Shown here in pieces: positions 8,462-28,040 of a stretch of DNA of 64,000 bases. Under the pieces are notes generated by a model. It made no database searches. It was not told the origin of the DNA and worked only from the letters and a program-made list of their open reading frames with translations. Each line of letters opens with the position of its first letter. Position 1 is the stretch's first letter. This DNA comes from Phyllobacterium sp. 21LDTY02-6 (GTDB lineage: Bacteria; Pseudomonadota; Alphaproteobacteria; Rhizobiales; Rhizobiaceae): contig NZ_JAMJWD020000005.1 in NCBI RefSeq assembly GCF_023554255.2, forward strand, positions 310,001-374,000, in the 5' to 3' direction. Both the position numbers and the translations under genes were made by a program.

Positions 8462-8463
8462 CC

Positions 8464-8781
8464 ATGGCCCTCATCAGAGACATTGCCCAAATCTGCAAAA
8501 GCAAGAATGCCGGTCCTTTCAACGTGACGATCGACGTGTTGTTCGAGGATCACTCGGTCTATCAAGAGGTGAAGGCCACCGGGGTGCTGAACGCCGCGCT
8601 GTTTTCAAAACTCTACGGCGTCAAGGAAGAGGACGTGCTCTTCACTCCCTACGACACGGCGTCCGCCTTCAAGGCAACCTTTCCGCGGGCGGTACCTGCC
8701 GGCGATATCGGAGATACCGACGTCTATGGGGCGCAGCAACATGCGCCGCTGCTGGATGTAGATATCCCGCTTCAGAAGTGA
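8464..8781 (+). CDS. DUF4387 domain protein
   Basis: A 105-residue protein made almost entirely of the DUF4387 domain, with the characteristic ICKSKNAGPFNVTIDVLF start. The ATG at 8464 lies two bases after the AtuA-like stop; longer in-frame starts would fall inside that gene. No signal peptide or membrane segment is present. Its function is unknown. Tight coupling to the AtuA-family gene suggests it is the small subunit of a two-component enzyme. Confidence 0.85.
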   Translation: MALIRDIAQICKSKNAGPFNVTIDVLFEDHSVYQEVKATGVLNAALFSKLYGVKEEDVLFTPYDTASAFKATFPRAVPAGDIGDTDVYGAQQHAPLLDVDIPLQK

Positions 8782-8787
8782 CCTGAA

Positions 8788-8837
8788 AACCGCGCATGGG
8801 TCTTCTTGCAGGAGGACGCAGGGAGGTCCATGCGGTT
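8788..8837 (+). promoter_or_regulatory. nested stem-loop between DUF4387 and MFS genes
   Basis: AACCGC(G)CATGG (8788-8799) pairs with CCATGCGGTT (8828-8837) with one bulge. Inside, GTCTTCTT (8800-8807) pairs with AGGAGGAC (8810-8817) using G-U wobbles. The structure lies in the 82-bp gap before the MFS gene and may set relative expression inside the operon. Confidence 0.4.
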
Positions 8838-8863
8838 GCCACTATCAGCTTTGGGAGGAGCTT

Positions 8864-10207
8864 ATGGCCACAGAAACATCCGACATCCGCAAGGTTGCGC
8901 TCGCAAGCTTCATCGGGTCGACCCTGGAGTGGTACGATTTCTTCATCTTCGGTACGGCCACGGCCCTCGTCTTCAACAAAATATTCTTTCCTGAATTCGA
9001 CCCCGCAACGGGCATGATCGCGGCCTTCGCGACCTTTGCTGTCGGGTTCATCGCCCGCCCGTTGGGCGGCATCGTGTTTGGCCATTTCGGCGACCGGATC
9101 GGCCGGAAGGCCATGCTGGTGCTCAGCCTGACCATGATGGGGGGCATCACGTTCCTGATCGGCCTCATCCCCACTTATGCGGTGCTCGGCGTCGGTGCGC
9201 CGATCCTTCTGACATTGCTCCGCTTTCTGCAGGGCTTTGCGGTCGGCGGCGAATGGGGAGGGGCAACACTGATGGTCGTCGAACACGCGCCCAATCGGAC
9301 GCGGGGCTTCTTCGGCAGTTGGCCTCAGATGGGCATTCCGGCGGCACTTCTTCTGTCGTCGGGCATGATGGCGCTCGTCGGCGCGCTGACGACGCCCGAA
9401 CAGTTCATGGCTTGGGGATGGCGCATACCGTTCCTGTTCAGCGGCGTGCTGCTGGTCTTCGGCATCTACCTGCGCCGCCGCCTGGCGGAATCGCCGAGCT
9501 TCCGGAAAATGAAGTCCGAGGGCGAGCGTGAGCGCCTGCCCGTCGTCGAAGTGCTCGGCAAGCACGGCAAGAAGACCACCCTTCTCATCGCCTGCCAGGC
9601 AGCAGAGAACACGAGTTTCTACGTCGTTGCTGTCTATTCGCTTGTCTACCTCACCACCGTGGTTGGCATTGATCGTGGCACCGCATTGAATTCCCTGATG
9701 ATCGCTGCGGTATTCTGTTTTGTCGCCCAGCCAATTTTCGCCGCTTTGTCCGACCGGATCGGCCGCAAGCGCGTATTCATGGGCGGGATGATTTTTAACG
9801 GCCTGTTCATCGCACCGTTCTTCCTGTTCCTCGATACGGCGAACGTGTTCTGGATCACGGCGGCGATGATACTTTCCATCGTCCTCGGACAGGCGACGAC
9901 GCAATCCACGCAACCCAGCCTCGTCGCCGAGCAATATACCGCCTCGGTGCGATATAGCGGCGTATCGGTCGCCTACCAGTTCGCCACCGTGCTCTGGAGT
10001 GGGCCGACGCCGATGATCGCAGCAGCACTATGGGCGTGGTCGGGAACCTGGATACCGCTTGCGTGCTACATCATGGCAGCTGCCTGCCTCTCAGTCCTCA
10101 GCATCGTTCCGTTGCGCGAAGCAGCCGGTGCCGATCTCGAAGAGGAATCTAACGAAGGCGCGCTCGAACCGGCATCCTCGACACGGGCCGTCCATCAATA
10201 TCAATAA
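8864..10207 (+). CDS. MFS permease, metabolite:H+ symporter (MHS) type
   Basis: A 447-residue inner-membrane transporter with about 12 transmembrane segments. The start segment (IGSTLEWYDFFIFGTA) and the loop-2-3 motif RPLGGIVFGHFGDRIGRK are characteristic of the MHS subfamily, which includes the ShiA, ProP and KgtP carriers of organic acids and zwitterions. The motif recurs in the second half (LSDRIGRKRVFMGG). The ATG at 8864 follows GGGAGGAGCTT. With the TRAP system it gives the island two different importers, perhaps for the primary substrate and an intermediate. Confidence 0.93.
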   Translation: MATETSDIRKVALASFIGSTLEWYDFFIFGTATALVFNKIFFPEFDPATGMIAAFATFAVGFIARPLGGIVFGHFGDRIGRKAMLVLSLTMMGGITFLIGLIPTYAVLGVGAPILLTLLRFLQGFAVGGEWGGATLMVVEHAPNRTRGFFGSWPQMGIPAALLLSSGMMALVGALTTPEQFMAWGWRIPFLFSGVLLVFGIYLRRRLAESPSFRKMKSEGERERLPVVEVLGKHGKKTTLLIACQAAENTSFYVVAVYSLVYLTTVVGIDRGTALNSLMIAAVFCFVAQPIFAALSDRIGRKRVFMGGMIFNGLFIAPFFLFLDTANVFWITAAMILSIVLGQATTQSTQPSLVAEQYTASVRYSGVSVAYQFATVLWSGPTPMIAAALWAWSGTWIPLACYIMAAACLSVLSIVPLREAAGADLEEESNEGALEPASSTRAVHQYQ

Positions 10208-10224
10208 GACAGGAGCCAGACGCC

Positions 10225-11193
10225 ATGTCCCATGATCAACGCATTCTCCGCAACGCCCTCGGATCTTTCGCTACGGGTGTCACCGTCGTCACCACTCGTG
10301 CCGTTGGCGACAGGGATATCGGACGGACGGCCAACAGCTTCAGCTCGGTCTCGCTCGATCCGCCGATGATACTCTGGAGCCTGGCGAAAACCTCGTCCAG
10401 CTTCGAGGATTTCAGGCAGGCCGAACATTTCGCCGTGCATATCCTGTCGGCAGACCAAAGCGACATATCCGGCCTGTTCGCCAGCAAGAAGGAAAACAAG
10501 TTCGATGGGCTGGCAGTCGAGCGTGGCGAAGACGAAATTCCGCTTCTGAAAAACTGCGCAGCCCGTTTCGAATGCCGTACCGCCTATCAGTACGAAGGCG
10601 GCGACCACATCATTTTCGTTGGCGAAATTATCGGTTTCCAGCATTCCAGCACGCCGCCGCTGATCTTTCACGGCGGGCAGTATGGCCGGCTCATTCGCCA
10701 CGCCGGCGACGCAACCTCGTTCGAAAAGAAGGAAAGCAGCCTTTCGCCGGACGACTTCATCTATCAGATTTCGCGCGTATTCTATCAGATTCGCAGCGAC
10801 GCGATGGCAGAACGGCGTCGACGCGGATGGAGTGGCGCGGACTATGCCGTTCTGACACTGCTCGGCCATGAGGATGGCCGCGCGCTCGAGGAAATTCGCG
10901 AGATCGGCCGCTCGCGCGGAGACGAGATCACTGACGAAACGATCAACAAACTCAAGTCCATAGGCCTTATCAAGGTCGATGGAACAATGACGCGAACGGC
11001 GCATCTAACCGGGGAGGGTCGCAAGGCGATGATCGAGATAGTCGCAATGCTGAAATCGGCGGAAGCCGAAACTCTGGCCCTTCTCGACGAGAACGAGGCC
11101 TGGGTGCTGAAACAACTGCTGAACAGGCTCGCGACATCACGGGATAGCGGCTGGCCGCCGGTTCGGCAGCAGGCAGTCGCTGCGTCAGCTTGA
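10225..11193 (+). CDS. flavin reductase with C-terminal winged-helix domain
   Basis: A 322-residue protein of two parts. Residues about 1-165 form a flavin-reductase-like domain (NSFSSVSLDPP and FAVHIL segments) that would reduce FMN with NAD(P)H. Residues about 195-300 resemble a MarR-type winged helix (AVLTLLGHEDGRALEEI, then TDETINKLKSIGLIKVDG and a TGEGRKAM wing). The reductase is the expected partner of the monooxygenase at 5711. Such reductase-winged-helix fusions occur among NtaB-like proteins; whether the extra domain binds DNA is unknown. It follows the MFS gene by 17 bp and is in the same operon. Confidence 0.88.
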   Translation: MSHDQRILRNALGSFATGVTVVTTRAVGDRDIGRTANSFSSVSLDPPMILWSLAKTSSSFEDFRQAEHFAVHILSADQSDISGLFASKKENKFDGLAVERGEDEIPLLKNCAARFECRTAYQYEGGDHIIFVGEIIGFQHSSTPPLIFHGGQYGRLIRHAGDATSFEKKESSLSPDDFIYQISRVFYQIRSDAMAERRRRGWSGADYAVLTLLGHEDGRALEEIREIGRSRGDEITDETINKLKSIGLIKVDGTMTRTAHLTGEGRKAMIEIVAMLKSAEAETLALLDENEAWVLKQLLNRLATSRDSGWPPVRQQAVAASA

Positions 11194-11217
11194 GCGCACA
11201 CGGATAGTGGAGGTGTG

Positions 11218-12099
11218 ATGACCCGCTTTGCCATCGGAGACATCGTGGTCTCCGCCATATGGGAGATGGAGGACACGTCGTTCCAGATGAGGTCCTTCTT
11301 TCCACTCGTCACAGAGGAAATGCTGGCCCGGGAGCGATCCTGGCTAACGCCGATGTTCCATGACCCCGCTACGGACCAGATCAAGCTCAGCATTCATGCC
11401 TGGCTGATCGATACCGGTCGGCACAAGATCCTCGTAGATACCTGTGTCGGCAATGACAAGAAGCGTCACGCGCGCAATCAATGGTCCAATCTTGATACGC
11501 CCTTCATTGAGCGCCTGCGTGCGGCGGGCGCCGAGCCCGATGCGATCGATTATGTCTGTTGCACCCATCTTCACGCCGACCATGTCGGTTGGAATACGAG
11601 GCTCATCGACGGGCGTTGGGTGCCGACCTTCCCGAACGCAAAATATATTTTCGGGCGGAAGGAATACGATTACTGGACCGAAAAATATGGCTCCGACCCG
11701 GGCAGCCATCATCTTGCCGCTTATAACGACAGTGTCCTGCCTGTCGTCGAAGCCGGGCAAGTGGTGCTGGTGAACGACGGATACGAGCTTGACGGCTGCC
11801 TGACGTTCAAGCCGGCACCCGGCCACACGCCTGGCCATGTTGCCATTTGGCTGCACTCCAATGGCCGCGAGTGCGTGTTTTCGGGCGACATCATCCATCA
11901 CCCGATCCAGCTCAGATATCCGCGGCTTAGCTGCATGGGCTGCGAGGATCCAGTGCAGTCGGCACACACCCGTAACGCCCTGCTGGCAGACATAGCAGAT
12001 ACCGGCAGGATGCTGATGACCGGACATTTTCTGGCGCCGCATGCGGCTCATATCGAAACCGCCGGCGAAAGTTTTCGTGTGCGGTGTTTGCCGTGCTAG
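11218..12099 (+). CDS. metallo-beta-lactamase-fold hydrolase
   Basis: A 293-residue MBL-fold enzyme with the metal-binding HxHxDH motif at H117-H119-D121-H122 (CTHLHADH), a following PGHTPGH histidine, an Asp in FSGDI and a late GHFLAPH segment. This is the pattern of lactonase and hydrolase members (AttM/BlcC-like group) rather than of true beta-lactamases, and there is no signal peptide. The ATG at 11218 is preferred to an overlapping GTG at 11215 because of spacing from TGGAGG. In this operon it could open a lactone or cleave an ester or thioester intermediate. The substrate is not known. Confidence 0.88.
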   Translation: MTRFAIGDIVVSAIWEMEDTSFQMRSFFPLVTEEMLARERSWLTPMFHDPATDQIKLSIHAWLIDTGRHKILVDTCVGNDKKRHARNQWSNLDTPFIERLRAAGAEPDAIDYVCCTHLHADHVGWNTRLIDGRWVPTFPNAKYIFGRKEYDYWTEKYGSDPGSHHLAAYNDSVLPVVEAGQVVLVNDGYELDGCLTFKPAPGHTPGHVAIWLHSNGRECVFSGDIIHHPIQLRYPRLSCMGCEDPVQSAHTRNALLADIADTGRMLMTGHFLAPHAAHIETAGESFRVRCLPC

Positions 12100-12136
12100 C
12101 GTCGCTGGCTGCAGATCGCATTTGAAGGAGAGAGAC

Positions 12137-13261
12137 ATGAAGATCAGAGCCGCCGTGCTTCGCCAGATGGGCGCCAGCATGCCCTACACCATGAGCAAGC
12201 CACTGGAAATCGCCGAGCTTGATCTGGACCGCCCGGGACGCGGAGAAGTTCTGGTGCGTATCCGTGCGGCCGGGCTCTGCCATTCGGATCTCTCCGTCAT
12301 CAACGGCAGCAGGCCGCGGCCGTTGCCGATGGCAATCGGCCACGAGGCGGCAGGCGAGGTGGTCGAACTCGGTGAAGGCGTCGACGATCTGGATGTGGGC
12401 GATCATGTCGTGCTGGCCTTCGTGCCAAGCTGCGGACATTGCCTGCCATGCTCGGAGGGACGACCGGCACTATGCGAGCCGGGTGCCGCGTCCAATGGCA
12501 AGGGCACGCTCCTCACTGGAGACATCAGGCTGCACTCTGATGGAGAGCCGGTTCATCACCATCTCGGCTGCTCCGCCTTCGCCGACCACGCAGTCGTGTC
12601 GCGGTGCTCGATCGTCAAGATCGATAAGGACCTCCCGTTCAATGAGGCAGCGCTGTTCGGCTGCGCGGTGTTGACCGGGGTCGGCGCGGTGGTGAACACC
12701 GCAAGGGTCCAAGCGGGGCAGACCACAGTGATCGTCGGTCTCGGCGGTGTGGGGCTGGCGGCTTTGCTGGGCGTGATAGCCACGGGTGCGGCGCATGTGA
12801 TAGCGGTCGACCTGTCGGATGAAAAGCTGGAGACCGCCCGCGAGCTCGGGGCAACGGCGACGGTCAATGCCCGCGACGCGGATGCCGTCGAAAGAGTCCG
12901 GAAGCTCACAAATGGCGGCGCCGATTTCGCCTTCGAGTTCGCAGGCTCCGAAAAGGCGCTGGAGACCGCCTACAAAATGACCCGGCGCGGCGGAACGACG
13001 GTGACGGCCGGGCTGCCTGCGCCAACGGCGGCCATGCCGCTCAACATTGTCAGCCTTGTCGCCGAGGAGCGCACCGTGAAGGGCAGCTATATCGGTACCT
13101 GCGTGCCGGTTCGCGATATTCCGCGTTATGTCGCCCTCTACAAGTCGGGGCGCCTGCCGGTGAACAAGCTTCTCAGCGGTGCGATCAGACTCGACGAGAT
13201 CAACGAGGGTTTCGACCGGTTGCACAAGGGTGAGGTGATCCGGCTGGTGGTCGAGATGTAG
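12137..13261 (+). CDS. zinc-dependent alcohol dehydrogenase
   Basis: A 374-residue medium-chain dehydrogenase with both zinc sites: catalytic ligands in CHSD and GHEAAGEV, and the structural lobe CGHCLPCSEGRPALC. The NAD-binding Rossmann motif is GLGGVGLAALLG, with an Asp (AVDLSDEK) after the second strand favouring NAD. The layout is close to class III/AdhC-like enzymes, but no formaldehyde-specific residues can be assigned. The ATG at 12137 follows GAAGGAGAG; upstream in-frame starts would overlap the hydrolase gene. It probably oxidises an alcohol intermediate, or reduces an aldehyde, of the island's pathway. Confidence 0.93.
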   Translation: MKIRAAVLRQMGASMPYTMSKPLEIAELDLDRPGRGEVLVRIRAAGLCHSDLSVINGSRPRPLPMAIGHEAAGEVVELGEGVDDLDVGDHVVLAFVPSCGHCLPCSEGRPALCEPGAASNGKGTLLTGDIRLHSDGEPVHHHLGCSAFADHAVVSRCSIVKIDKDLPFNEAALFGCAVLTGVGAVVNTARVQAGQTTVIVGLGGVGLAALLGVIATGAAHVIAVDLSDEKLETARELGATATVNARDADAVERVRKLTNGGADFAFEFAGSEKALETAYKMTRRGGTTVTAGLPAPTAAMPLNIVSLVAEERTVKGSYIGTCVPVRDIPRYVALYKSGRLPVNKLLSGAIRLDEINEGFDRLHKGEVIRLVVEM

Positions 13262-13290
13262 TGTCCGGCTCAAACGAGCCCAGACTCGGC

Positions 13291-13323
13291 ATAATCATCA
13301 TGAAAATTTTTCATGATGATTAT
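13291..13323. promoter_or_regulatory. 33-bp perfect AT-rich palindrome
   Basis: Two 16-bp arms (starting ATAATCATCATG and ending CATGATGATTAT) are exact inverted copies around one central base. The site lies 60 bp before the HisD-like start in the only sizeable gap of this operon section, and it has neither a GC-rich stem nor a T-tract. An operator for a dimeric or tetrameric regulator, marking an internal promoter, is the likeliest reading. Confidence 0.5.
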
Positions 13324-13382
13324 GAAAACTTGCAAGCGGTATGTCTTCGCCCTTACAGCTTGGTCGCAAAGGGAGATCAATC

Positions 13383-14693
13383 ATGACCATCACCTATCTC
13401 AAGCGTGGCAAACCTGCCGACGAACGCGCCGAGGACGATGCCAGGGTTCGCGCCGTCGTCGAGACGACCCTCAAGGACATCGAGACCCGCGGCGACGCCG
13501 CTGTGCGCGAGCTGTCGGAAAAGTTCGACAAGTTTTCACCGCCCTCCTTTCGCCTCAGCGCTTCCGAAATCGAAGCGGCGATGAGCAAGGTCACGGCGCG
13601 CGACATGGCCGATATCGAATTCGCCCAGGCACAGATCCGGAGTTTCGCCGAAGCGCAGAAGGCGTCGATGCATGACATCGAGGTCGAGACCGTGCCGGGT
13701 GTCATCCTCGGCCATCGCAACATTCCGGTCCAGTCGGTCGGATGCTACGTGCCTGGCGGCAAGTTCCCGATGGTGGCGTCTGCCCACATGTCGGTTCTGA
13801 CCGCCTCTGTCGCGGGTGTTCCACGCATCGCCGCCGCTGCGCCGCCGCAAAAGGGTGAACCGCATCCGGCGATCGTCGCAGCCATGCACAAGGCGGGGGC
13901 GCATGAAATCTACGTTCTCGGCGGCATGCAGGCCGTGGGCGCCATGGCGCTTGGCACCGAAACGATCAAGCCGGTGGACATGCTGGTTGGCCCCGGCAAC
14001 GCCTTCGTCGCCGAAGCGAAGCGCCAGCTCTATGGTCGCGTCGGTATCGACCTCTTCGCCGGCCCCACGGAAACCATGGTCATCGCCGACGAGACGGTCG
14101 ATGCCGAATTGTGCGCCACCGATCTCCTGGGCCAGGCCGAGCACGGCTACAACTCCCCGGCCGTCCTCGTCACCAATTCGGAAAAGCTTGCACGCGCGAC
14201 GCTGGCCGAGATCGACCGGCTGCTAGCCATTTTGCCCACCACCGAAACCGCCTCTGCTTCCTGGCGCGATTATGGCGAGGTGATCGTCTGCGACACCTAT
14301 GAGGAAATGCTCGACGTCGCAAACGACATCGCCTCCGAACATGTCCAGGTCATGACCGACCGCGACGACTGGTTCCTGGAAAAGATGCATTCCTACGGCG
14401 CGCTATTCCTTGGTCCCCGCACCAATGTCGCCAATGGCGACAAGGTCATCGGTACGAACCATACGCTGCCGACGAAGAAAGCCGGGCGTTACACCGGCGG
14501 TCTCTGGGTGGGCAAGTTCCTGAAGACGCACTCCTACCAGAAGGTGACGACGGATGCCGCTGCTGCCGAATTCGGCGCCTATTGCTCGCGGCTATGCATG
14601 CTGGAAGGCTTCGTCGGCCACGCCGAACAGGCCAATGTGCGCGTTCGCCGCTATGGCGGTAAAAACGTACCTTATGGCGTCGCCGCGGAATAA
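13383..14693 (+). CDS. HisD-family dehydrogenase, probably catabolic (HpsN-like)
   Basis: A 436-residue member of the histidinol dehydrogenase family. Conserved segments are [11 protein letters not shown], the [13 protein letters not shown] region, [11 protein letters not shown] with the catalytic Glu-His region, ASEHVQ and GTNHTLPT. HisD enzymes carry out a four-electron NAD-dependent oxidation of an alcohol to an acid through an aldehyde. With no other his gene nearby and catabolic neighbours, this is more likely a paralogue such as sulfopropanediol 3-dehydrogenase (HpsN) or a relative acting on another alcohol. The ATG at 13383 follows GGGAGATC. The SDR gene follows. Confidence 0.88.
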
Positions 14694-14712
14694 GGTACAT
14701 AACCCACGGGGC

Positions 14713-14728
14713 GTGCCACCGCTGGCAC
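14713..14728 (+). promoter_or_regulatory. small hairpin before the SDR gene
   Basis: GTGCCA-CCGC-TGGCAC, a 6-bp stem in the 64-bp gap between the HisD-like and SDR genes. No T-tract follows. Its role is uncertain. Confidence 0.25.
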
Positions 14729-14757
14729 ACATTCCTTCAAAAGCCGGGGCCGGAACC

Positions 14758-15522
14758 ATGGAATTGCCGACCACACCTTCGTTTCGACTGGAAGGCAAGC
14801 GCGCACTTGTCGCCGGCGCGTCCTCTGGTATCGGCTTGGGCGGCGCCGTCGCGCTGGCGGAAGCCGGCGCCCAGGTCGTTCTCGCGGCCCGCAACGCGGA
14901 CCGGCTCGCCGAGGCCGTGGAAGCTATCCGCGCGCGCGGATACTCTGCCGATGCCCTTTCCCTCGACGTCGCCGATGTCACGGAGACGGAGCGTCAGGTC
15001 GCGGCTCTCGGCCCCTTCGATATCCTGGTGAACAGCGCCGGGCTCGCCCGCCATACCCCGGCGCTCGAAACCACCACTGCCGATTTCGACGCCGTTTTCG
15101 GCATCAACGTCCGCGGTGCCTATTTTCTTACCCGGGCGATTGCCAAGGGTCTGATCGACGCCGGAAAACCCGGATCGCTCATTAACATCTCGTCGCAGAT
15201 GGCGCAGGTCGGCGGCATAGACCGCGCCGTCTACAGCGCCTCCAAACACGCGGTCGAAGGCTTTACCAAGTCGATGGCGATCGAGTGGGGCAGGAGCGGT
15301 ATCCGCGTCAACACGATCTGCCCGACCTTCATTCGCACACCTTTGACCGAACAAACCTTCGCAGATCCCGAGCGGGTGCGCTGGATCGAGGAGAAAATAA
15401 AGCTCAGTCGTCTCGGCACGGTCGAAGACATCATGGCCGCCGTCATCTATCTCGCCTCGGATGCATCGTCGATGATCACGGGAACGGCCCTCATGGTCGA
15501 CGGCGGCTGGACCGCCGATTAG
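14758..15522 (+). CDS. short-chain dehydrogenase/reductase (SDR)
   Basis: A 254-residue classical SDR with the cofactor motif GASSGIGLG near residues 20-28, the NSAG motif, a catalytic Ser in NISSQ, and YSASK carrying the Tyr-Lys pair. It ends with the usual MITGTALMVDGGWTAD tail. The residues after the second strand (ARNADR) suggest NADP(H) may be used. The ATG at 14758 is preferred because upstream in-frame starts lie inside the HisD-like gene. It is the last gene of the run that starts at 5711; 271 bp with no recognisable element follow before the next gene. Confidence 0.92.
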   Translation: MELPTTPSFRLEGKRALVAGASSGIGLGGAVALAEAGAQVVLAARNADRLAEAVEAIRARGYSADALSLDVADVTETERQVAALGPFDILVNSAGLARHTPALETTTADFDAVFGINVRGAYFLTRAIAKGLIDAGKPGSLINISSQMAQVGGIDRAVYSASKHAVEGFTKSMAIEWGRSGIRVNTICPTFIRTPLTEQTFADPERVRWIEEKIKLSRLGTVEDIMAAVIYLASDASSMITGTALMVDGGWTAD

Positions 15523-15793
15523 CGCTATCCAACGCCTGTGGCGCAATTCGTCTGTCCTGATGCTGTTACTGGTCGTTGCACAGCGGATGCTCATCGAAGC
15601 CGGCCACGGGGGAGGCTCTGCCAGGGCCGGGTCGGCCGCTCGATTGCTCAAGAACTTCCGATGCCGCGTTTGATGTAGCCATCGAGTTGTCATGCGCGCA
15701 GCGCTCAGATACCGCCGAATTCAGGGAGGCAATTGCAATGCTGCCACATTGGCCTCATTTTGCCTGTCACATATAGGGACGGGTAGGCGCATC

Positions 15794-17884
15794 ATGGTTG
15801 ACCAGAACACTTCTCCAAGAAAGACCACGGGAACGAAAGGCGATGCAGTCGAAGTTGCAGCTCCCATGCCGCTGAGGTTTGGGGATGATCCCTATGTCTG
15901 GGCCTGCTGGCTGTATTACGAAGACGGGCGGACGCAAAGCGACATTGCACAGATCATGGGAATCTCCCGCGCGACCGTAAACACCTATCTTGCGGATGCA
16001 CGCGATCGCGGCATCGTCAATATATCGTTGGAACCAGAGCGCCTTGGTTCGCTGTTGTTGGCCAAGGAACTCAAACGGCATTTTGGTCTGAACGACTGCC
16101 TCGTGGTGCCAAGCGACGATGGTGCTCGCCCCCTGATAGACCGGTTAGGGGCCGCTGGTGGACAGGCACTATCGAGGATGATCAGATCGGGAGACACTCT
16201 TGCTGTCGCGTGGGGCCGCACGGTAATGGCTATCGCTGAGCACACGTCTGCAAGTGTGCAGGATGTAACCGTCGTGCAGGCTACCGGCGGGACGAGAGCA
16301 AATTTTGCCTACACGCCAGAGCATTGCGCTGCGGCACTGGCGCGGGCAGTCAAGGGCCGTCTTGTCAACATTACCGCCCCGGCATTGGTCAATAGTCGCC
16401 AGGCGCGTGACATCATCATGCAGGAACCGCTGGTGGAAGATCAGTTCGAGGTCCTTCAGCAGGCAAACAAGGCCTTGTTCGGAATTGCATCCTTAAGGCC
16501 AAATTCCACTATTCATACGAGCGGATTTTTTGAGTCTGTAGCAATTCAAGAATACCTGTCGAAGAACGCCGTGGGTGTCGTGGCGGGCCGTTTCCTTGAT
16601 GGACAAGGCACCCCCGTGAAGGGCCCGCTGGATGAGCGCACGATCGGGATCGATCTGGATACGCTCAAGGCCATCGACATGCGCATCGCCGTAGCCGGTG
16701 GCTATGACAAGGTTCCCGCAATTCTGGCCGCGTTGAGAGGAGGATACGTGACCATCCTCATAACCGATGCTGCGACCGGTTCGGCGATATTGAGCGCCGA
16801 GGACGTACGACCGAACGTCACCAGGCCGCTACGAACGCGATCGCAGGACGAGGTCGCGCAGCCGCTAAGGACGCGCAATTTCGTGAAGAAATTCCTTAAC
16901 GATGCAGATGAGGTCGTGGAGGAAATGCTGGAAGGTCTCATCGAGGCTCATAGCTCCCATCTTTCGCCAATCAACGGATCCCAGCGGGCTTTAATGGCTC
17001 GAAATGGTCCGCGCCCGGGAAAGGTTGGACTGGTGATTGGCGGGGGATCCGGGCACGAACCCTGTTTCTTCGGGTATGTCGGCCAGGGACTCGCCGATGC
17101 CGTCGCCGTTGGGAATGTATTTTCTTCTCCACCGCCTGGGCCAATTCTCGAGTGCGCACGCGCCGCCAGTGGTGGTGAAGGCGTGCTTTTCGTGTATGGC
17201 AACTACGCCGGGGACGTCATGAATTTCGAGATGGCCGCCGAGATGGCGCAGGTTGAAGGCATCAAGGTCCGAACCGTCCTGACGACCGATGATATCGCAT
17301 CCTCCTCCCTGGAAGATCGCGAGGGACGGCGAGGTGTCGCGGGAAATTTCTTCATCTTCAAGATAGCCGGCGCTGCATGCGACCGCGGTCTGAATCTTTA
17401 TGAATGTGAAGCGATGACCCGCCATGCCAATGACCGCACGTTCACCATGGGGGTCGCGCTGGAGTCGTGCTCATTGCCTCAAACACGGCGTCCAAGCTTC
17501 GATATCGGGCCCGACGACATAGAAATCGGTATGGGCATTCATGGCGAACGCGGGGTGATCCGACAGGAGCTGGCACCAGCCGATGCGATTGTCGATCGCA
17601 TCATGGATCAGATATTCGTGGAAATGAAACCGGCCAAGGGCGACAGCGTGGCGGTGCTTGTGAATTCTTTTGGCGGCACCCCGCTTATGGAGCTTTATAT
17701 TATCTACCGGCGCGTTCGGCAGCGCCTCGCCGCGCGCGGCGTCAGAATAGAAGCTAACTGGATCGGGCACTACTGTACGTCGCTCGACATGGTTGGTGCA
17801 TCGATTTCGATCATGCATCTGGACAACCAGCTCACGGAACTCCTTCGTCATCCCTGCGACGGCGTGGCGATTAACATTGCATGA
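15794..17884 (+). CDS. SorC-type regulator fused to dihydroxyacetone kinase DhaK
   Basis: A 696-residue two-part protein. Residues about 30-355 are a SorC/DeoR-like regulator: a helix-turn-helix (45-72, with GRTQSDIAQIMGISRATV) and a sugar-binding effector domain. Residues about 361-696 are a complete DhaK domain with GGGSGHEP (H421) and GIHGERG, whose H583 matches the His that forms the covalent hemiaminal with the ketose in DhaK. The ATG at 15794 starts just before the regulator domain, and no frame break separates the parts. A dhaL gene follows 48 bp on. The protein may sense a ketose or its phosphate while also taking part in phosphorylating it. The architecture is seen directly; the coupling of the two functions is inferred. 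Confidence 0.92.
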   Translation: MVDQNTSPRKTTGTKGDAVEVAAPMPLRFGDDPYVWACWLYYEDGRTQSDIAQIMGISRATVNTYLADARDRGIVNISLEPERLGSLLLAKELKRHFGLNDCLVVPSDDGARPLIDRLGAAGGQALSRMIRSGDTLAVAWGRTVMAIAEHTSASVQDVTVVQATGGTRANFAYTPEHCAAALARAVKGRLVNITAPALVNSRQARDIIMQEPLVEDQFEVLQQANKALFGIASLRPNSTIHTSGFFESVAIQEYLSKNAVGVVAGRFLDGQGTPVKGPLDERTIGIDLDTLKAIDMRIAVAGGYDKVPAILAALRGGYVTILITDAATGSAILSAEDVRPNVTRPLRTRSQDEVAQPLRTRNFVKKFLNDADEVVEEMLEGLIEAHSSHLSPINGSQRALMARNGPRPGKVGLVIGGGSGHEPCFFGYVGQGLADAVAVGNVFSSPPPGPILECARAASGGEGVLFVYGNYAGDVMNFEMAAEMAQVEGIKVRTVLTTDDIASSSLEDREGRRGVAGNFFIFKIAGAACDRGLNLYECEAMTRHANDRTFTMGVALESCSLPQTRRPSFDIGPDDIEIGMGIHGERGVIRQELAPADAIVDRIMDQIFVEMKPAKGDSVAVLVNSFGGTPLMELYIIYRRVRQRLAARGVRIEANWIGHYCTSLDMVGASISIMHLDNQLTELLRHPCDGVAINIA

Positions 17885-17932
17885 TTACCGCTGTTACAAC
17901 GAGAGTTCGTGAGTGGAATGGGAGGAAATGGA

Positions 17933-18577
17933 ATGGGTGAGCCAGGTACGCAGCAGATCATCCGAATGTTCGAGCGGATATCTCTGGCGATCAATAGCGA
18001 AAAAGGCAGGCTCTCGGAGCTTGACGGAGCGATTGGGGATGCGGACCACGGAATAACAATGGCTCGGGGTTTCTCCGCTGTGACCAAACGATTGTCGGGT
18101 TCGAATTGCGAGACCCTTTCCCCCTCGGAAATCTTGCGCATTGCGGCATCGACATTCCTGGATGCAGTCGGAGCTTCCACCGGCCCTCTCTATGCGACCG
18201 CATTTACAGATGCGGCGCAGGCTCTGTCCGGCAAGGATCGCCTGGCGGTGCAGGAACAGGCGGATCTCATCGCGGCATTCAGCTCAGGTATAAAGCGACG
18301 AGGAAAGGGCGAACGCGGCGACAAGACAATGCTGGATGCCTGGGTTCCCGCTGCCGAGGCGGCATTGAGGGCCCGCGCTCGCGACGCAACGGCCGTCGAA
18401 ATGTGGCAGGACATATTGTCGGCCGCTGAAACCGGCTGTGAATCAACCAAATCGATGGTGGCAGCGCGCGGCAGGGCTCTGCGCCTGGGCGAACGATCCC
18501 TTGGCCACATCGATCCCGGAGCAGCATCCGCCGTGGTCATCATTGCGGCCATGAAGGACACCTTTGCCGATTCCTGA
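17933..18577 (+). CDS. dhaL: dihydroxyacetone kinase nucleotide-binding subunit DhaL
   Basis: A 214-residue all-helical kinase subunit that binds ATP/ADP with Mg ions and passes phosphate to the ketose held by DhaK. The acidic metal-binding motif is DGAIGDADHG (D31, D36, D38). The C-terminal part has GDKTMLDAW and LGERSLGHIDPGA, typical of DhaL. The ATG at 17933 is chosen because GGGAGGAA precedes it by six bases; an upstream GTG at 17909 would place that ribosome site inside the gene. It partners the fused DhaK domain upstream. No DhaM gene is nearby, so ATP itself may be the donor. Confidence 0.92.
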   Translation: MGEPGTQQIIRMFERISLAINSEKGRLSELDGAIGDADHGITMARGFSAVTKRLSGSNCETLSPSEILRIAASTFLDAVGASTGPLYATAFTDAAQALSGKDRLAVQEQADLIAAFSSGIKRRGKGERGDKTMLDAWVPAAEAALRARARDATAVEMWQDILSAAETGCESTKSMVAARGRALRLGERSLGHIDPGAASAVVIIAAMKDTFADS

Positions 18578-20315: not shown

Positions 20316-21206
20316 GTGCGACTTCGGCAAATTGAGCTATTTCGTCTGGTCGTTCGTCAGGGAACGCTGACCGCGGCCGCAGACGCCTTGTCGATTACCC
20401 AACCTGCTGCAAGCAAACTGCTCGCTCAACTCGAAAGCCACGTTGGGCTGGAACTATTTGAACGGACGAAGCGTCGTTTGATTTTGACGCGGGAAGGTGA
20501 GGTGTTTGCAGCCGAGGTTGAGCGCACATGGGAGAGCATTCAACGGCTTCGGCGTACCGCTGTCGATATCAGGCAACTGAAATTTGGTCGTTTGAACATC
20601 GCCGCTATGCCGAGTGTGGCGGGCTCATTCCTGCCGCCGATCGTCACGAACTTCTCTGCAAGAAAGAAGAATGTTTCAATTTCAGTGCATGCGCGCACTT
20701 CCGAACGCATCCATGAATGGGCGATTGGCGGCCAGATCGATATCGGCTTCACGCACAGTCGCGCGATTCACCCGCTTGTTTCGAGTGAGCTTCTGGTTCG
20801 AATTCCGGAGGTCTGCATCATGCCAACAAACCATCGGCTGGCGCATCGGGAAACTATCAGACCCGCCGACTTCCAGGATGAGGAATTCGTCCGGATAGGC
20901 GATATTGGCGACATTACCGAGGCGGACCAGGTTTTTATCGACGCCCAAATCCCCCGTAAATTAAATCTTGAAACACCGATGGCTTTCGTAGCCTGCGATC
21001 TTGTCGCTAACGGAGCAGGGCTCTCTCTAGTGGACCAGCTCACAGCCGCAAGCTACGGGCGACCAGGGCTGGTGTTTCGCCCCTTTGTGCCAACGCTCTA
21101 CTCGGAAATCTGGTGCATTCGACCTAAAATGCTTCGACCATCCGGCATTGCCGATGAATTCCTCCGCGCTGTTCACGATTGCATATCCCACGTGATCCAA
21201 AGATAA
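20316..21206 (+). CDS. LysR-family transcriptional regulator
   Basis: A 296-residue regulator with an N-terminal LysR helix-turn-helix (residues 1-60; AADALSITQPAASKLLAQLE) and a C-terminal periplasmic-binding-like effector domain (about 90-290). The start is GTG at 20316, preceded by AAGAGG. It lies between the divergent MATE gene and the ABC transporter operon that begins at 21520, and could control either. The N-terminal dimer helix and the LILTREGEVF segment are normal. No effector can be predicted. Confidence 0.93.
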   Translation: MRLRQIELFRLVVRQGTLTAAADALSITQPAASKLLAQLESHVGLELFERTKRRLILTREGEVFAAEVERTWESIQRLRRTAVDIRQLKFGRLNIAAMPSVAGSFLPPIVTNFSARKKNVSISVHARTSERIHEWAIGGQIDIGFTHSRAIHPLVSSELLVRIPEVCIMPTNHRLAHRETIRPADFQDEEFVRIGDIGDITEADQVFIDAQIPRKLNLETPMAFVACDLVANGAGLSLVDQLTAASYGRPGLVFRPFVPTLYSEIWCIRPKMLRPSGIADEFLRAVHDCISHVIQR

Positions 21207-21519
21207 AATCGCTCCCGTCAGGATCGCATGGCAGCAAATTTGTCGCCGATATCCTGCGACGCTTGTCCTGACCTTTAAAGCTGCGCTTGCTGCCGGTCCC
21301 GGCCTTTGCTGACAGGTGTGAAGCCGAGCCCCTGTGCAATCAGGCGGCCCTTTTACAAAGTTCGATTTACTATCGACATATGTCAAAAACTCACATAAGC
21401 TTTCCAGGCCTTGGCTAGCGGAGGACGGAGCGACAACAGCGCCGGCTAGCGAAATGGCCTGGGAGTTGGGCGAGCAATTCACAGGGTGGTTGGCTTGCAG
21501 CTATGCGGGAGGATGTGCG
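21207..21519. promoter_or_regulatory. upstream region of the ribose-type ABC operon
   Basis: A 313-bp gap. Its most notable element is the palindrome GACATATGTC (21375-21384), within TCGACATATGTCAAAA. An open frame crosses the second half in phase with the permease, but it lacks a ribosome site and any permease homology, so I treat it as noncoding leader. Confidence 0.3.
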
Positions 21520-22506
21520 GTGTTTGCCAGATTGTCGGATCGGCAGTTGAATTTCCTTGTGGTGGTCAACGCCCTCGTGATTGCGGTTGCGGTTGTCCTC
21601 GCTGGTGATACCTTTCTCAGCCTTTACAATTTTCAATCCATGTCGGCGCAAGTCCCGGAACTTGCGCTTCTGGCGCTCGGCGTCATGTTGGCGATGATCG
21701 CGGGCAGTGGCGGCATTGATCTGTCGGGCATCGCGCTTGCCAATCTTTCCGGTATTGTGTCCTACCTGTTGATCCGCGATTGGGTTTCGGCCGATGATCT
21801 GCCGCTGACCTTCGTCGGGCTGTTCGCGGGCATTGCGCTGCTCGTCGGCCTCGTCGGCGGCATGATCAATGGAGCGCTGGTCGCCTTCGTCGGGCTAACC
21901 CCGATTATCGCCACACTAGGCACTCAACTGTTCTTCACCGGGATTGCCGTTCTCATCACCAATGGTTCGGCTGTCAGCCTCGGCTACATCGAGCCGCTTG
22001 ATGATTTCGGCAACACGCCGGTCCTCGGTGTGCCCATGTGTTTCGCCCTGTTCATCGCCATTGCCGTCATGCTCGGCGTGGTGTTGCGCTACACGCCCTT
22101 CGGCCTCAAGCTTTATCTGATGGGAAGCAATGCGAAAGCCGCACGTTATGCCGGTATTCCAAACCGGCGCATGTTGTTCGTCATCTATACGATTTGCGGA
22201 GTTCTCGCTTCGATCGCCGGCATCATCATCGCTGCACGCACTTCCAGCGTGAAGTGGGACTACGGCACATCCTATGTGCTGATCGCCATTCTGATCGTGG
22301 TCATGGCCGGGGTTCGCCCCGAAGGCGGTTACGGGCGCATCATTTGCGTCGTCCTGTCGGCAACGGCATTGCAAATGCTGTCCAGTCTTTTCAATTTCAT
22401 CGATATTTCCAATTTTTTCCGCGATTGCGCCTGGGGTCTGCTGCTGTTGATCTTCCTCGCAACCTCGCGGTTCGACGTGCGGTCCTTCCTTCCATTGCGA
22501 AGTTGA
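21520..22506 (+). CDS. sugar ABC transporter permease (RbsC type)
   Basis: A 328-residue inner-membrane permease of the ribose/autoinducer-2 import family, with about 9-10 transmembrane segments. Family features are the early GGIDLSGIALANLSG segment, GLTPIIATLGTQLFFTGIA and the LYLMGSNAKAARYAGI cytoplasmic loop that contacts the ATPase. The GTG at 21520 is selected because GGGAGGA ends six bases before it and the product has normal length. It starts a run with a binding protein and an ATPase-permease fusion, so the complex probably contains this subunit paired with the permease half of the fusion. Confidence 0.9.
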   Translation: MFARLSDRQLNFLVVVNALVIAVAVVLAGDTFLSLYNFQSMSAQVPELALLALGVMLAMIAGSGGIDLSGIALANLSGIVSYLLIRDWVSADDLPLTFVGLFAGIALLVGLVGGMINGALVAFVGLTPIIATLGTQLFFTGIAVLITNGSAVSLGYIEPLDDFGNTPVLGVPMCFALFIAIAVMLGVVLRYTPFGLKLYLMGSNAKAARYAGIPNRRMLFVIYTICGVLASIAGIIIAARTSSVKWDYGTSYVLIAILIVVMAGVRPEGGYGRIICVVLSATALQMLSSLFNFIDISNFFRDCAWGLLLLIFLATSRFDVRSFLPLRS

Positions 22507-22512
22507 AGCCGC

Positions 22513-22535
22513 GGCATTGCTGGCGGCGCAATGCC
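22513..22535 (+). promoter_or_regulatory. hairpin between permease and binding-protein genes
   Basis: GGCATTGC (22513-22520), a 7-base loop, GCAATGCC (22528-22535): a perfect 8-bp stem seven bases after the permease stop. It probably acts on mRNA stability; no T-tract follows. Confidence 0.4.
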
Positions 22536-22584
22536 CTCGCAGCCAGCACCTTTTTGGGGCAACAACGATAATGAGGAAACGCTT

Positions 22585-23586
22585 ATGTCTCTCTACAGGA
22601 AAATCGCAGCCTGCACGGTCGCCCTCGGCGCTCTCTGCGCAGCCCAGGCCGTCGTTGCACAGGATACGCCGTCAATCGTTACCGTCGTGAAGGTGACCGG
22701 CGAGAACTGGTTTACCCGCATGGAACAGGGCGTCGTCGCCTATGGCAAGGACAATGCCGGCGTCAAGACAAGTCAGGTCGGACCAGCAAAGGCAGACTCC
22801 GCACAACAACTCCGATTGATTGAAGACCTGGTCGCCAAGAACGTCAGTGCCATCGCGGTCGTTCCGATGGATCCGTCGGCGCTTGAGGGTGCTTTCAAGC
22901 GCGCCATGGGCCGCGGCATCAAGATCATTACGCATGAAGGCGACAGCCTGAAGAACACTAATGTCGACATAGAGGCCTTTGACAATGCGGTCTTTGGCGC
23001 ACGTTTCAACGAGCGACTTGCCCAGTGCATGGGCAATTCCGGCAAGTGGACGTCCTTCGTCGGTTCGCTCGGCAGCCTGACGCATGTCCAATGGGCGGAT
23101 GGTGGTGCTGAGAATGCGAAAAAGCACCCTGAAATGGAACTGGTTTCGGAGAAGAACGAATCCTTTAACGACGCCAACAAGGCCTATGAAAAAGCTCGCG
23201 AAATACTGCGCAAATATCCCGATATCAAAGGCTTTCAGGGTGGTTCAGCCATTGATGTCATCGGCATCGGCCGTGCTGTAGAAGAAGCCGGCCTCGTCGG
23301 TAAAGTCTGCGTGGTCGGTCTGGGCTTGCCGAAGGATACATCCAAATATCTCGAATCTGGCGCCGTCCAGAGCATTTCCTTCTGGGATCCGAAGGATGCG
23401 GGCTATGTCATGAACAAAGTCTCCGATCTCCTGCTTCAGGGCAAGGAAATCACCGACGGCATGGATCTTGGCGTTCCCGGCTACAACAAGGTCAGCGTCA
23501 AGAAGGGGCCAGGCGACGGCATCATCATCGTCGGGGAAGCCTGGGTCGATGTCGATAAGTCGAACTACAAAGAATACCCGTTCTGA
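22585..23586 (+). CDS. sugar ABC transporter substrate-binding protein (RbsB/LsrB-like)
   Basis: A 333-residue periplasmic binding protein. The ATG at 22585 follows AATGAGGAAACGC and opens a signal peptide (residues 1-25, ending AVVA/QDTPS). The mature protein has the family-1 pentose/hexose-binding layout: VVKVTGENWFTRMEQG, IEDLVAKNVSAIAVVPMDP, and the IKGFQGGSAIDVIGIGRAVEEAG segment near 220-245. Overall it is closer to the rhamnose/AI-2-type receptors than to RbsB itself. It is flanked by hairpins that may raise its expression. Two ketose-kinase sets nearby suggest a ketose, tetrulose or polyol ligand, but that is inference. Confidence 0.92.
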   Translation: MSLYRKIAACTVALGALCAAQAVVAQDTPSIVTVVKVTGENWFTRMEQGVVAYGKDNAGVKTSQVGPAKADSAQQLRLIEDLVAKNVSAIAVVPMDPSALEGAFKRAMGRGIKIITHEGDSLKNTNVDIEAFDNAVFGARFNERLAQCMGNSGKWTSFVGSLGSLTHVQWADGGAENAKKHPEMELVSEKNESFNDANKAYEKAREILRKYPDIKGFQGGSAIDVIGIGRAVEEAGLVGKVCVVGLGLPKDTSKYLESGAVQSISFWDPKDAGYVMNKVSDLLLQGKEITDGMDLGVPGYNKVSVKKGPGDGIIIVGEAWVDVDKSNYKEYPF

Positions 23587-23608
23587 TCCCGCAACGATCG
23601 TCATGAAT

Positions 23609-23632
23609 GCGCCGGCGAAGCACCGCCGGCGC
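23609..23632 (+). promoter_or_regulatory. strong GC hairpin after the binding-protein gene
   Basis: GCGCCGGCG (23609-23617), loop AAGCAC, CGCCGGCGC (23624-23632): a perfect 9-bp stem between the receptor and ATPase-permease genes. It lacks a T-tract. Differential expression of receptor over transporter is the usual role of such elements. Confidence 0.5.
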
Positions 23633-23653
23633 GCAGCATAACGGAATGAGATA

Positions 23654-26278: not shown

Positions 26279-26293
26279 TGCGTTCAATTCGCC

Positions 26294-26309
26294 GGGCCAG
26301 CGGCCCTTT
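26294..26309 (+). terminator. short hairpin with T-rich tail
   Basis: GGGCC-AGC-GGCCC (26294-26306) followed by TTTC, 16 bp after the ATPase-permease stop. It may be a partial terminator before the second dhaK gene. Confidence 0.4.
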
Positions 26310-26385
26310 CTCAATCAGCCGCCAACCAAATTGTTAGGGCGGGCATGTGTCCGCCAGCCTCACTGGTAACCGTAAAGGAGTGATT

Positions 26386-27381
26386 ATGCAGCGTTTTATC
26401 AACGACCCTGACATGGTGGTTGAGGACACGGTCAGGGGATTTGTGAAGGCCCACTCAGATATCGTGCGCCTTTCCGCTGAGAACCCGCGTGTCATCGTTG
26501 CCAGGGACGCGCCGGTTGCCGGCAAGGTCGGCGTAGTAACCGGCGGAGGCTCTGGTCATGAGCCGGCCTTCATCGGGTATACGGGCACAAACATGCTCGA
26601 CGCGGTCGCGGTCGGCGAACTCTTCTCCTCGCCCACCGCAAAAAGCTTTCATGACGCCATCCGCGAAGCCGATGGTGGCAAAGGCGTCGTCGTGCTCTAC
26701 GGCAACTATGCCGGCGACAACATGAATGTGAAGATGGCGGTGAAACTCGCCGCGAAAAATGGCATCGAAGTAGCAACCGTCGTCGCCAATGACGACGTCT
26801 GCTCCGCCCCGGCAGCGGAGCGCGAGAAACGCCGCGGCGTGGCCGGGGAAATCTTCATGTGGAAAATAGGCGGCGCCAAGGCCGCAACGGGCGCAAGCCT
26901 TGAAGAGGTGCGCGCCACGGCGCAGAAAGCAATCGACAATTGCCGCTCGATCGGAGTCGGCCTTGGCCCGTGCACGCTGCCGGCCGTAGGCCAGCCCAAC
27001 TTCCGGATCGAACCCGGTACGATGGAAGTCGGCATCGGGCATCACGGCGAGCCGGGTGTACGGGTCGAGGCGCTGAAGACCGCCGAAGAGGTCGCACGCG
27101 ACATGGTGAAGATCGTGCTCGACGATCACGACCTGCCGGAAGGCAAAGAGGTCGCCGTGCTCGTCTCGGGTCTCGGAGCGACGCCGCTGAATGAACTCTA
27201 CATCCTCAACGACACGATCGAGAGCGAAATATCGGCGCGTGGCCTGAAGATCCGCAAGACCTGGGTCGGCAACTACTTCACATCACTGGAAATGGTCGGC
27301 GCGACGTTGACCATCATGGCACTTGACGAAGAACTGGCAGCGCTGCTCGACGTCGAGACGCGTTGTACAATTATCCTGTGA
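26386..27381 (+). CDS. dhaK: dihydroxyacetone kinase substrate-binding subunit DhaK
   Basis: A 331-residue stand-alone DhaK. It holds the keto substrate covalently on a His in VGIGHHGEPG (H219 or H220) and has the conserved GGGSGHEP (53-60), LYGNYAGDNMNVKMA and AGEIFMWKIGGA segments. The ATG at 26386 follows AAAGGAGTGATT. It is closer to ordinary DhaK than is the kinase half of the regulator fusion at 15794. The partner dhaL begins 14 bp after its stop. It acts in the cytoplasm on dihydroxyacetone or, as in known relatives, on a tetrulose; the adjacent sugar importer supports the latter class. Confidence 0.93.
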   Translation: MQRFINDPDMVVEDTVRGFVKAHSDIVRLSAENPRVIVARDAPVAGKVGVVTGGGSGHEPAFIGYTGTNMLDAVAVGELFSSPTAKSFHDAIREADGGKGVVVLYGNYAGDNMNVKMAVKLAAKNGIEVATVVANDDVCSAPAAEREKRRGVAGEIFMWKIGGAKAATGASLEEVRATAQKAIDNCRSIGVGLGPCTLPAVGQPNFRIEPGTMEVGIGHHGEPGVRVEALKTAEEVARDMVKIVLDDHDLPEGKEVAVLVSGLGATPLNELYILNDTIESEISARGLKIRKTWVGNYFTSLEMVGATLTIMALDEELAALLDVETRCTIIL

Positions 27382-27395
27382 CGGGAGGAGCATCC

Positions 27396-28040
27396 ATGCA
27401 GAATTTCGACAACGCATCCGCAGGTGCAATAATTCTCTCAATGGCTGAGCGGATCATCGAAAACCGCGCCTACCTCAGCGAGATCGACGGCAAGATCGGC
27501 GATGGCGACCATGGGGTGAATATGGCAAAGGGCTTCGGCATGGCTGCGGAGCGGCTAAAAGGCAAAGACCTGACGCTTGCCGAGTCTCTGGATACGCTGG
27601 GAGACCTGCTGATGACCGAAATTGGCGGCTCGATGGGACCTCTCTATGGCGTCATGTTCACGGAGTTTGCCGAAAGCATCCAAGGCACGGAAAAGATTGA
27701 CGCAGCGCTCTACAGCAAGATGCTGCATGCGGGCCTTTCCGGCGTCGAGTCGATCGGGTCGGCCAAGGTAGGCGACAAAACGCTGCTCGATACGCTCGTT
27801 CCCGCCATCGAGGCCTTTGACAGAGCGACTGCGGACGGAAAAACCTTCCGTGAGGCGCTCGAAGCTCTGGTCGCCGCGGCGGAGGCCGGCCGCGACTCGA
27901 CCATAGATCTTGTGGCGAAGATCGGGCGTGCCAGTCGCCTTGGAGAACGGTCGCTTGGCGTGCTCGATGCCGGCGCAACCTCCTGTGCGATCATACTCAA
28001 GGAACTGTCCGACGGTGCGCGTGCGCGCATTGAGCGCTAG
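27396..28040 (+). CDS. dhaL: dihydroxyacetone kinase subunit DhaL
   Basis: A 214-residue nucleotide-binding kinase subunit with the metal-binding motif DGKIGDGDHG (D31, D36, D38), then GGSMGPLYG, VGDKTLLDTLVPA and LGERSLGVLDAGA. The ATG at 27396 follows ACGGGAGGAGC, a strong ribosome site, so upstream in-frame starts overlapping dhaK are rejected. It has the same length as the first DhaL (17933-18577) and an identically placed Asp triad, but many differences elsewhere, so the two are diverged paralogues rather than a recent duplication. Confidence 0.93.
   Translation: MQNFDNASAGAIILSMAERIIENRAYLSEIDGKIGDGDHGVNMAKGFGMAAERLKGKDLTLAESLDTLGDLLMTEIGGSMGPLYGVMFTEFAESIQGTEKIDAALYSKMLHAGLSGVESIGSAKVGDKTLLDTLVPAIEAFDRATADGKTFREALEALVAAAEAGRDSTIDLVAKIGRASRLGERSLGVLDAGATSCAIILKELSDGARARIER

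Follow-up and report, generated by a model that had tools for sequence, protein, structure and literature searches.

A SorC-type regulator fused to a DhaK kinase domain in Phyllobacterium sp. 21LDTY02-6 and its relatives: a candidate repressor that carries a ketose kinase

We report that the 64,000-nt stretch of the Phyllobacterium sp. 21LDTY02-6 genome analysed here (contig NZ_JAMJWD020000005.1, positions 310,001 to 374,000; referred to as the window) encodes a protein in which a SorC-type transcriptional regulator and a dihydroxyacetone kinase DhaK domain form one chain. The gene is followed by dhaL and, further downstream, by genes for a sugar ABC transporter and a second DhaK/DhaL pair (Table 1).

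Table 1. Features of the fusion locus in the window, with predicted operator half-sites
Feature	Position	Strand	Remarks
SorC::DhaK fusion gene	15794..17884	+	one stop-free open frame, 696 aa
HTH DNA-binding part, residues 33-75	15890..16018	+	Pfam match at 40-71
SorC effector-binding domain, residues 85-333	16046..16792	+	PF04198, 217.8 bits; fold matches DeoR, SorC, LsrR
Low-confidence linker, residues 340-370	16811..16903	+	pLDDT <50 in AlphaFold model
DhaK kinase domain, residues 363-690	16880..17863	+	PF02733; E. coli DhaK alignment from 363
dhaL, partner of fusion	17909..18577	+	PF02734; TIGR02365 184.1 vs cut-off 138.3
Degenerate operator half-site TTTTACAAAGTTCGAT (predicted)	21351..21366		21 bp from clean half-site
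Operator half-site ATCGACATATGTCAAA (predicted)	21372..21387		25.1 bits
Sugar ABC permease	21559..22506	+	start codon uncertain, frame opens at 21334
Periplasmic sugar-binding protein	22585..23586	+	PF13407; RhaS/LsrB-like, below curated cut-offs
ABC ATPase and permease in one frame, 874 aa	23654..26278	+	PF00005, PF02653
Separate DhaK, 44% identical to fused half	26347..27381	+	homology from ATG 26386
Second dhaL	27396..28040	+	TIGR02365 173.2 vs cut-off 138.3

An HTH followed by PF04198 gives the N-terminal half the architecture of SorC/DeoR regulators, according to Pfam, alignments and a fold search. Specifically, the HTH is of the DeoR type with a Sigma70_r4_2-like Pfam match (30.9 bits, cut-off 25.7), and the alignments with full-length DeoR, LsrR and SorC begin at residues 35-37 of the fusion, the open frame of which extends back to 15692 on the forward strand. 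The Pfam match of the C-terminal half to PF02733 (Dak1) covers residues 380-689 with 391.1 bits, and the active-site residues are His421 in GSGHEPC, Asp474 in YAGDVMN and His583 in MGIHGER. The fold search with the fusion returned DeoR, SorC and LsrR as well as E. coli DhaK, the last also as part of the DhaK-DhaR complex; E. coli DhaK is the nearest solved structure for the C-terminal half (3.6e-77), and DeoR, LsrR and SorC are the nearest for the N-terminal half. The AlphaFold model (pLDDT 73.1, pTM 0.46, 27 sequences) consists of folded parts and a low-confidence linker, with no defined arrangement between the halves. An earlier note on this DNA had read one unbroken frame running from an HTH through a SorC effector domain to a full DhaK domain, with H421 (in GGGSGHEP) and H583 kept and dhaL immediately downstream. 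Translation and Pfam agree with the frame, both histidines were located in the protein, and the gap to dhaL is 24 nt if it starts at GTG 17909 or 33 nt if it starts at ATG 17918.

Relatives of the fusion are numerous (542 proteins at E<=1e-100). The best 120 of these are 672-729 aa long, all with PF04198 and PF02733, and the nearest among them share architecture and length with the window protein at 69-85% identity. Among these 120, many of the proteins that have an NCBI name are called 'bifunctional sugar-binding transcriptional regulator/dihydroxyacetone kinase subunit DhaK', in line with the vague memory of such fused names voiced in the earlier note. The window protein belongs with these NCBI-named proteins, from which it does not differ structurally; the name comes from automatic annotation. 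The best 80 matches include Rhizobium, Mesorhizobium, Shinella, Ensifer, Brucella, Ochrobactrum and Labrys as well as, at 54-57% identity, Salipiger, Tropicimonas and Aureimonas. Of 199 genomes of the order, 13 have a full-length match (own genome counted), and so do 16 of 151 genomes of the family, where the most diverged match is 52% identical and two other genomes of the same genus had none; at E<=1e-150, 5 of 398 genomes of the phylum matched, all of the same class. The fusion is patchy across genomes yet widespread, and many bacteria of soils or associated with plants have conserved it.

For the comparative analysis we used 64 regions (L009-L055, L087, L088-L102 and the window), chosen by similarity to the whole protein and not by particular residues. 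The fusion is uninterrupted in 58 of them, which rules out the stop or frameshift near residue 360 that the earlier note had considered. Two pairs, L018/L088 and L033/L093, share identical DhaK rows and each is apparently one locus taken twice, so that the 58 rows correspond to about 56 loci. The other six are L048 and L053, cut at contig ends, L052, where the match is spread over a longer stretch, L100 and L101, where the halves are separate genes, and L102 with the same kind of match. In L100 the SorC gene (7419-8456) is followed 96 nt on by the DhaK gene, the pair lying within 7419-9506 and matching residues 16-673 of the fusion at 53% identity; in L101 (6117-8921) a DhaK-DhaL gene follows the SorC gene after 90 nt, and the identity is 40% over residues 38-695. 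In both, the split halves adjoin in the same order as in the fusion. In a quick DhaK tree, a single clade with SH-aLRT 97 takes up 56 of the 58 fused halves; it also contains L048, which is only a fragment, at the start of its contig, and probably a cut fusion. The fused DhaKs of L044 and L094 group with separate DhaKs, and a single origin is therefore not certain.

We do not favour separate translation of DhaK from a start within the linker. An ATG, GTG or TTG is present in 43 of the 58 linkers, a start behind a Shine-Dalgarno-like 4-mer in nine, and an ATG so placed in two; the window linker has a GTG behind AAGG, so an internal start is possible there.

The search for genomes with this architecture and for their neighbours, which the earlier note had proposed, yielded a family with recurring gene clusters. 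Genes were called in the 64 regions with a codon-scored ORF caller and then clustered. The genes commonly follow one another as ABC ATPase, permease, binding protein, SDR, DhaK, DhaL, SorC::DhaK and DhaL, so the cluster usually holds two DhaK/DhaL pairs. A DhaL on the same strand adjoins the fusion in 58/58, and a further DhaK lies nearby in 55/58, a count that combines the gene calls with DhaK genes found by tblastn in L022 and L035 (nine loci re-examined). For the remaining three (L044, L049 and L094) tblastn of the retrieved regions found no DhaK besides the fused one. In L044 (2866-12686) and L094 (1971-11736), another type of ABC transporter and a PfkB-like gene lie beside the fusion, which with one DhaL makes up the only DhaK/DhaL pair in the retrieved regions. 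The neighbours in L049 are DerI-type, TIM-like and, judged by eye, transaldolase-like genes.

These clusters look built for four-carbon sugars. The recurring SDR passed the GolD/DthD family model (L010; 402.8 vs 286), and a recurring RpiB-like protein passed the model for D-erythrulose-4-phosphate isomerase, DerI (L020; 255.8 vs 240). The closest solved structures for the binding protein of L010 are 4rsm, 5hko and 4rs3, which we take to be tetritol/pentitol-type binders. Since the recurring neighbours are a DthD-type dehydrogenase, a DerI-type isomerase and a sugar ABC transporter, they suggest breakdown of erythrulose or threitol; the likely substrate would be erythrulose, or threitol through erythrulose, and dihydroxyacetone is also possible. 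This assignment, under which the kinases would be erythrulose kinases of the DerK/LerK kind, rests on the neighbours in relatives and not on the window cluster, which is a variant comprising the fusion with its DhaL (15794-18577) and another type of ABC transporter with DhaK and DhaL (about 21559-28040). No DthD-type gene is present in the window cluster, and the SDR of the window fails the GolD/DthD model (191.8 vs 286). A DerI-type gene of the same genome (247.4 vs 240) is on another contig (L103), with a third DhaK/DhaL pair and a TIM-like gene; this locus (contig C7, about 8992-17999) also holds other sugar-phosphate genes, and its DhaK is 64% identical to the fused half. The window ABC ATPase-permease (23654-26278) represents a second gene fusion of the same regulon; the corresponding ATPase and permease of L009 are two genes.

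Upstream of the fusion, window positions 8864-15522 hold genes for an MFS transporter, a flavin reductase, a metallo-hydrolase, a Zn-ADH, a HisD-like protein and an SDR, perhaps a sulfonate or diol pathway. The closest solved structure for the HisD-like protein is sulfopropanediol 3-dehydrogenase (8v35, 1.8e-113) and the best histidinol dehydrogenase scored 2.5e-78, yet the hisD model was passed. A functional link between the fusion and the HisD-like, SDR and Zn-ADH genes was rejected, as their clusters do not recur next to the fusion in the remaining regions.

There is fair evidence that the fused DhaK half is a working kinase, based on conservation of the active site and of the DhaL motif, conservation of the kinase half, and the three loci where no other DhaK was found. 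All 58 fused proteins retain the residues that correspond to His56, Asp109 and His218 of E. coli DhaK, and a pattern match found DGxxGDxDHG in 113 of 115 DhaLs; the two misses keep the Asp residues (DEAIGDADHG in L041 and, in a frame called too short, DGAIADADHG in L038). Mean identity among the fusions is higher for the kinase half (0.739) than for the effector domain (0.664), and among 529 divergent pairs the values are 0.631 vs 0.533. Against a working kinase, the fused half scores under the equivalog cut-off of TIGR02363 (380.7 vs 406.25 bits), as does the separate DhaK of the window (351.7). The fused half also scores under the cut-off of the DhaQ model TIGR02362 (212.4 vs 413.25 bits). 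The DhaLs beside the fusion and those beside a separate DhaK fall mostly apart in a tree, with 2 and 5 label changes vs shuffled means of 38.0 and 38.5. DhaM (TIGR02364) had no match in the own genome, while the controls E. coli, L. lactis and H. volcanii all matched; ATP is therefore the likely phosphate donor for the kinase half.

A palindrome, wTyGACAwwTGTCrAw, was found upstream of the transporter operons in 33 of 34 dereplicated regions, with a log-likelihood of 328.8 vs 16.9 in a set shuffled for base content only (one such set per run; nine set-width runs). Before the transporter/kinase operon it usually takes the form of two half-sites spaced by 21 bp, the second of them weaker and present at this distance in 43 of 48 loci (at most 6 loci at control offsets). 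Sites of at least 15 bits precede the transporter ATPase in 40/42 cases where it heads a unit, the fusion gene in 3/46 and other head genes in 9/318, part of which may share a divergent intergenic region. Besides the usual transporter, the palindrome precedes another transporter type (L028, L032 and L035), the fusion gene where this heads the unit (L033, L091 and L093; weak in L092, L044 and L094) and, in some split clusters, the separate DhaK or DerI. Nine of 16 held-out loci have the palindrome, while none of 100 permuted motifs had a site in any of them, and a tenth (L031) has its sites upstream of the 350 nt scanned. In the 4.6-Mb genome the strict pattern TNGACAWWTGTCNA has a single match, at the predicted operator of the window; once two mismatches are allowed, the one match found in the window does not exceed chance expectation. 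Weighing against the operator, the strict pattern is found at the cluster in only 4 of the 12 other fusion-bearing genomes (G198, G150, G121 and G085), and of 7 genomes that lack the fusion 2 have a match as well; the off-cluster matches (L104-L108) lie in or near genes with no evident link, judged by eye from the translations.

The window fusion gene itself has no palindrome site upstream (best score -7.6), and its direct autoregulation through the palindrome was rejected. L042 and L095-L099, a diverged branch of the fusion, have no site at 15 bits, and their operator may differ. A search confined to the regions upstream of the fusion gene gave other, weaker palindromes (log-likelihood 109-199 vs 20-32); one between dhaL and the fusion gene, e.g. 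TcC.G.a.gATc.t.C.GgA, is present in 26 of 33 dereplicated loci and is perhaps a hairpin or another site. Around the predicted operator of the window (21200-21600) there is no sigma-70 promoter-like site, and no -10 box lies at a fixed distance from the predicted operator, so that repression by overlap is at most a possibility. Taken with the gene neighbours, the palindrome suggests that the regulator half of the fusion probably controls the ketose catabolism genes.

Judged from sequence, the fusion, its intact active-site residues, its pairing with DhaL and the paired palindrome before the operon are in place, and from these we infer a model in which the two halves may be coupled. The SorC half, as a tetramer, would occupy the paired half-sites and repress the sugar ABC transporter-dhaK-dhaL operon downstream of them. 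The DhaK half, with the adjoining dedicated DhaL and probably ATP, would phosphorylate a ketose, erythrulose being the best candidate. Binding of the pathway's ketose phosphate to the SorC effector domain would then release the repressor, and the uptake and kinase genes would therefore be on once the ketose has really been phosphorylated. The simplest reading is a repressor bearing the kinase that makes its own inducer, and to the model as a whole, a bifunctional repressor-kinase bound to its operator and released by the ketose phosphate, we assign a probability of roughly one half. In PMC11229326, SorC-family repressors are described as tetramers on DNA with phosphorylated sugars as effectors, and the CggR complex as disassembled by FBP and DHAP. 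Given that SorC effector domains take phosphorylated sugars and the CggR precedent, it appears at least as likely that the SorC half senses the phosphorylated product as that a covalently held ketose gates DNA binding, the idea raised in the earlier note. An extended version, which we regard as tentative, is a DNA-bound kinase that reads flux, where the ketose on His583, the nucleotide state of the dedicated DhaL and the ketose phosphate set free next to the SorC pocket would jointly gate release from the operator, all in one polypeptide.

An alternative that we hold to be possible, if on balance doubtful, is that the DhaK half is mainly a sensor: free ketose on His583 and the state of the docked DhaL would switch the SorC half directly, on the pattern of DhaR under DhaK/DhaL in E. 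coli and of the DhaQ-DhaS pair in L. lactis, and separate DhaK and DhaL proteins would catalyse. Since 55 of the 58 clusters hold another DhaK, catalysis need not fall to the fused kinase, and the mostly separate grouping of the two kinds of DhaL fits this as well. A precedent for contact between a DhaK and a regulator is the E. coli DhaK-DhaR complex (PDB title 4lrx, a fold match; PMC6643234). However, all three active-site residues are kept in every one of the 58 fusions, seemingly beyond the need of a pure sensor, the score against the DhaQ model is only about half its cut-off, and in three clusters no other DhaK was found in the retrieved regions.

That the two halves are not coupled at all, the shared chain serving joint expression or location while SorC regulates and DhaK phosphorylates independently, we consider rather improbable. 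In its favour, the linker is predicted to be disordered, the halves have no fixed placement relative to each other in the AlphaFold model, and the SorC and DhaK gene pairs of L100 and L101 are split. Against it, although such split pairs are viable, the fusion is retained down to 52% identity, and it has its own adjoining DhaL throughout. The split pairs provide a natural control for coupling between the halves. Finally, an artefact of assembly or gene calling that merged two neighbouring genes, as the split neighbours of a few relatives might suggest, and equally a chance fusion, can be dismissed in view of the same unbroken frame in 58 of the 64 regions and the matches in the order and family genomes counted above.

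Comparison with known systems places the repressor-kinase model in context. E. coli DhaK holds the ketose on a His, has DhaL as partner and acts on the transcription factor of its own operon (PMC6643234; PDB titles). In that system DhaKLM and DhaR are separate proteins, whereas the fusion has regulator and DhaK in one chain, and the phosphate comes from PEP through DhaM, for which the own genome has no match. DhaR, moreover, is of another family and has no SorC domain. L. lactis DhaQ/DhaS resembles the fusion in that a DhaK-like protein takes part in regulation (PDB titles 2iu4 and 2iu6). The low score of the fused half against the DhaQ model sets the two apart. DhaQ is a separate co-activator of DhaS. 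DeoR and CggR of B. subtilis have an HTH and PF04198 as the fusion does and, unlike it, no kinase part; the Lys of DeoR VVQLKGG, which we take to be the Schiff-base Lys141, aligns with Thr164 of the fusion (in VVQATGG). In DeoR the operator consists of one clean and one degenerate half-site, with a spacing of about 22 bp when counted on the sequence given in PMC11229326, compared with 21 bp in the predicted operator of the fusion. The M. smegmatis threitol and erythritol pathways comprise a dehydrogenase, an erythrulose kinase and a D-erythrulose-4-phosphate isomerase (Huang 2015, cited in PMC12780249). It is the DthD/GolD and DerI models that the recurring neighbours of the fusion pass. We know of no SorC::DhaK fusion in the description of these M. 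smegmatis pathways. BirA, PutA and NadR each combine, in one chain, DNA binding with catalysis of a step in the pathway under their control; their folds are unrelated to that of the fusion, for which coupling between enzyme and regulator is a candidate property.

As the fusion is already named in databases, its architecture is not new. No experimental study of it was found in the open-access literature, and the earlier note had known of none. The present analysis adds the predicted operator, the link to erythrulose and the case for the kinase half being complete, and it provides candidate genes for uptake and phosphorylation of erythrulose. With the predicted operator, the dedicated DhaL, the split loci L100 and L101 and the clusters with a single DhaK, the question of coupling is directly testable, and the fusion would be of more interest if coupling between the halves were shown. 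A repressor that senses a sugar phosphate, joined to a kinase that makes one, would be a small natural system in which to ask whether enzyme turnover can govern transcription from inside a single chain; if the flux-reading version is true, transcription would track catalytic turnover and not the concentration of the sugar.
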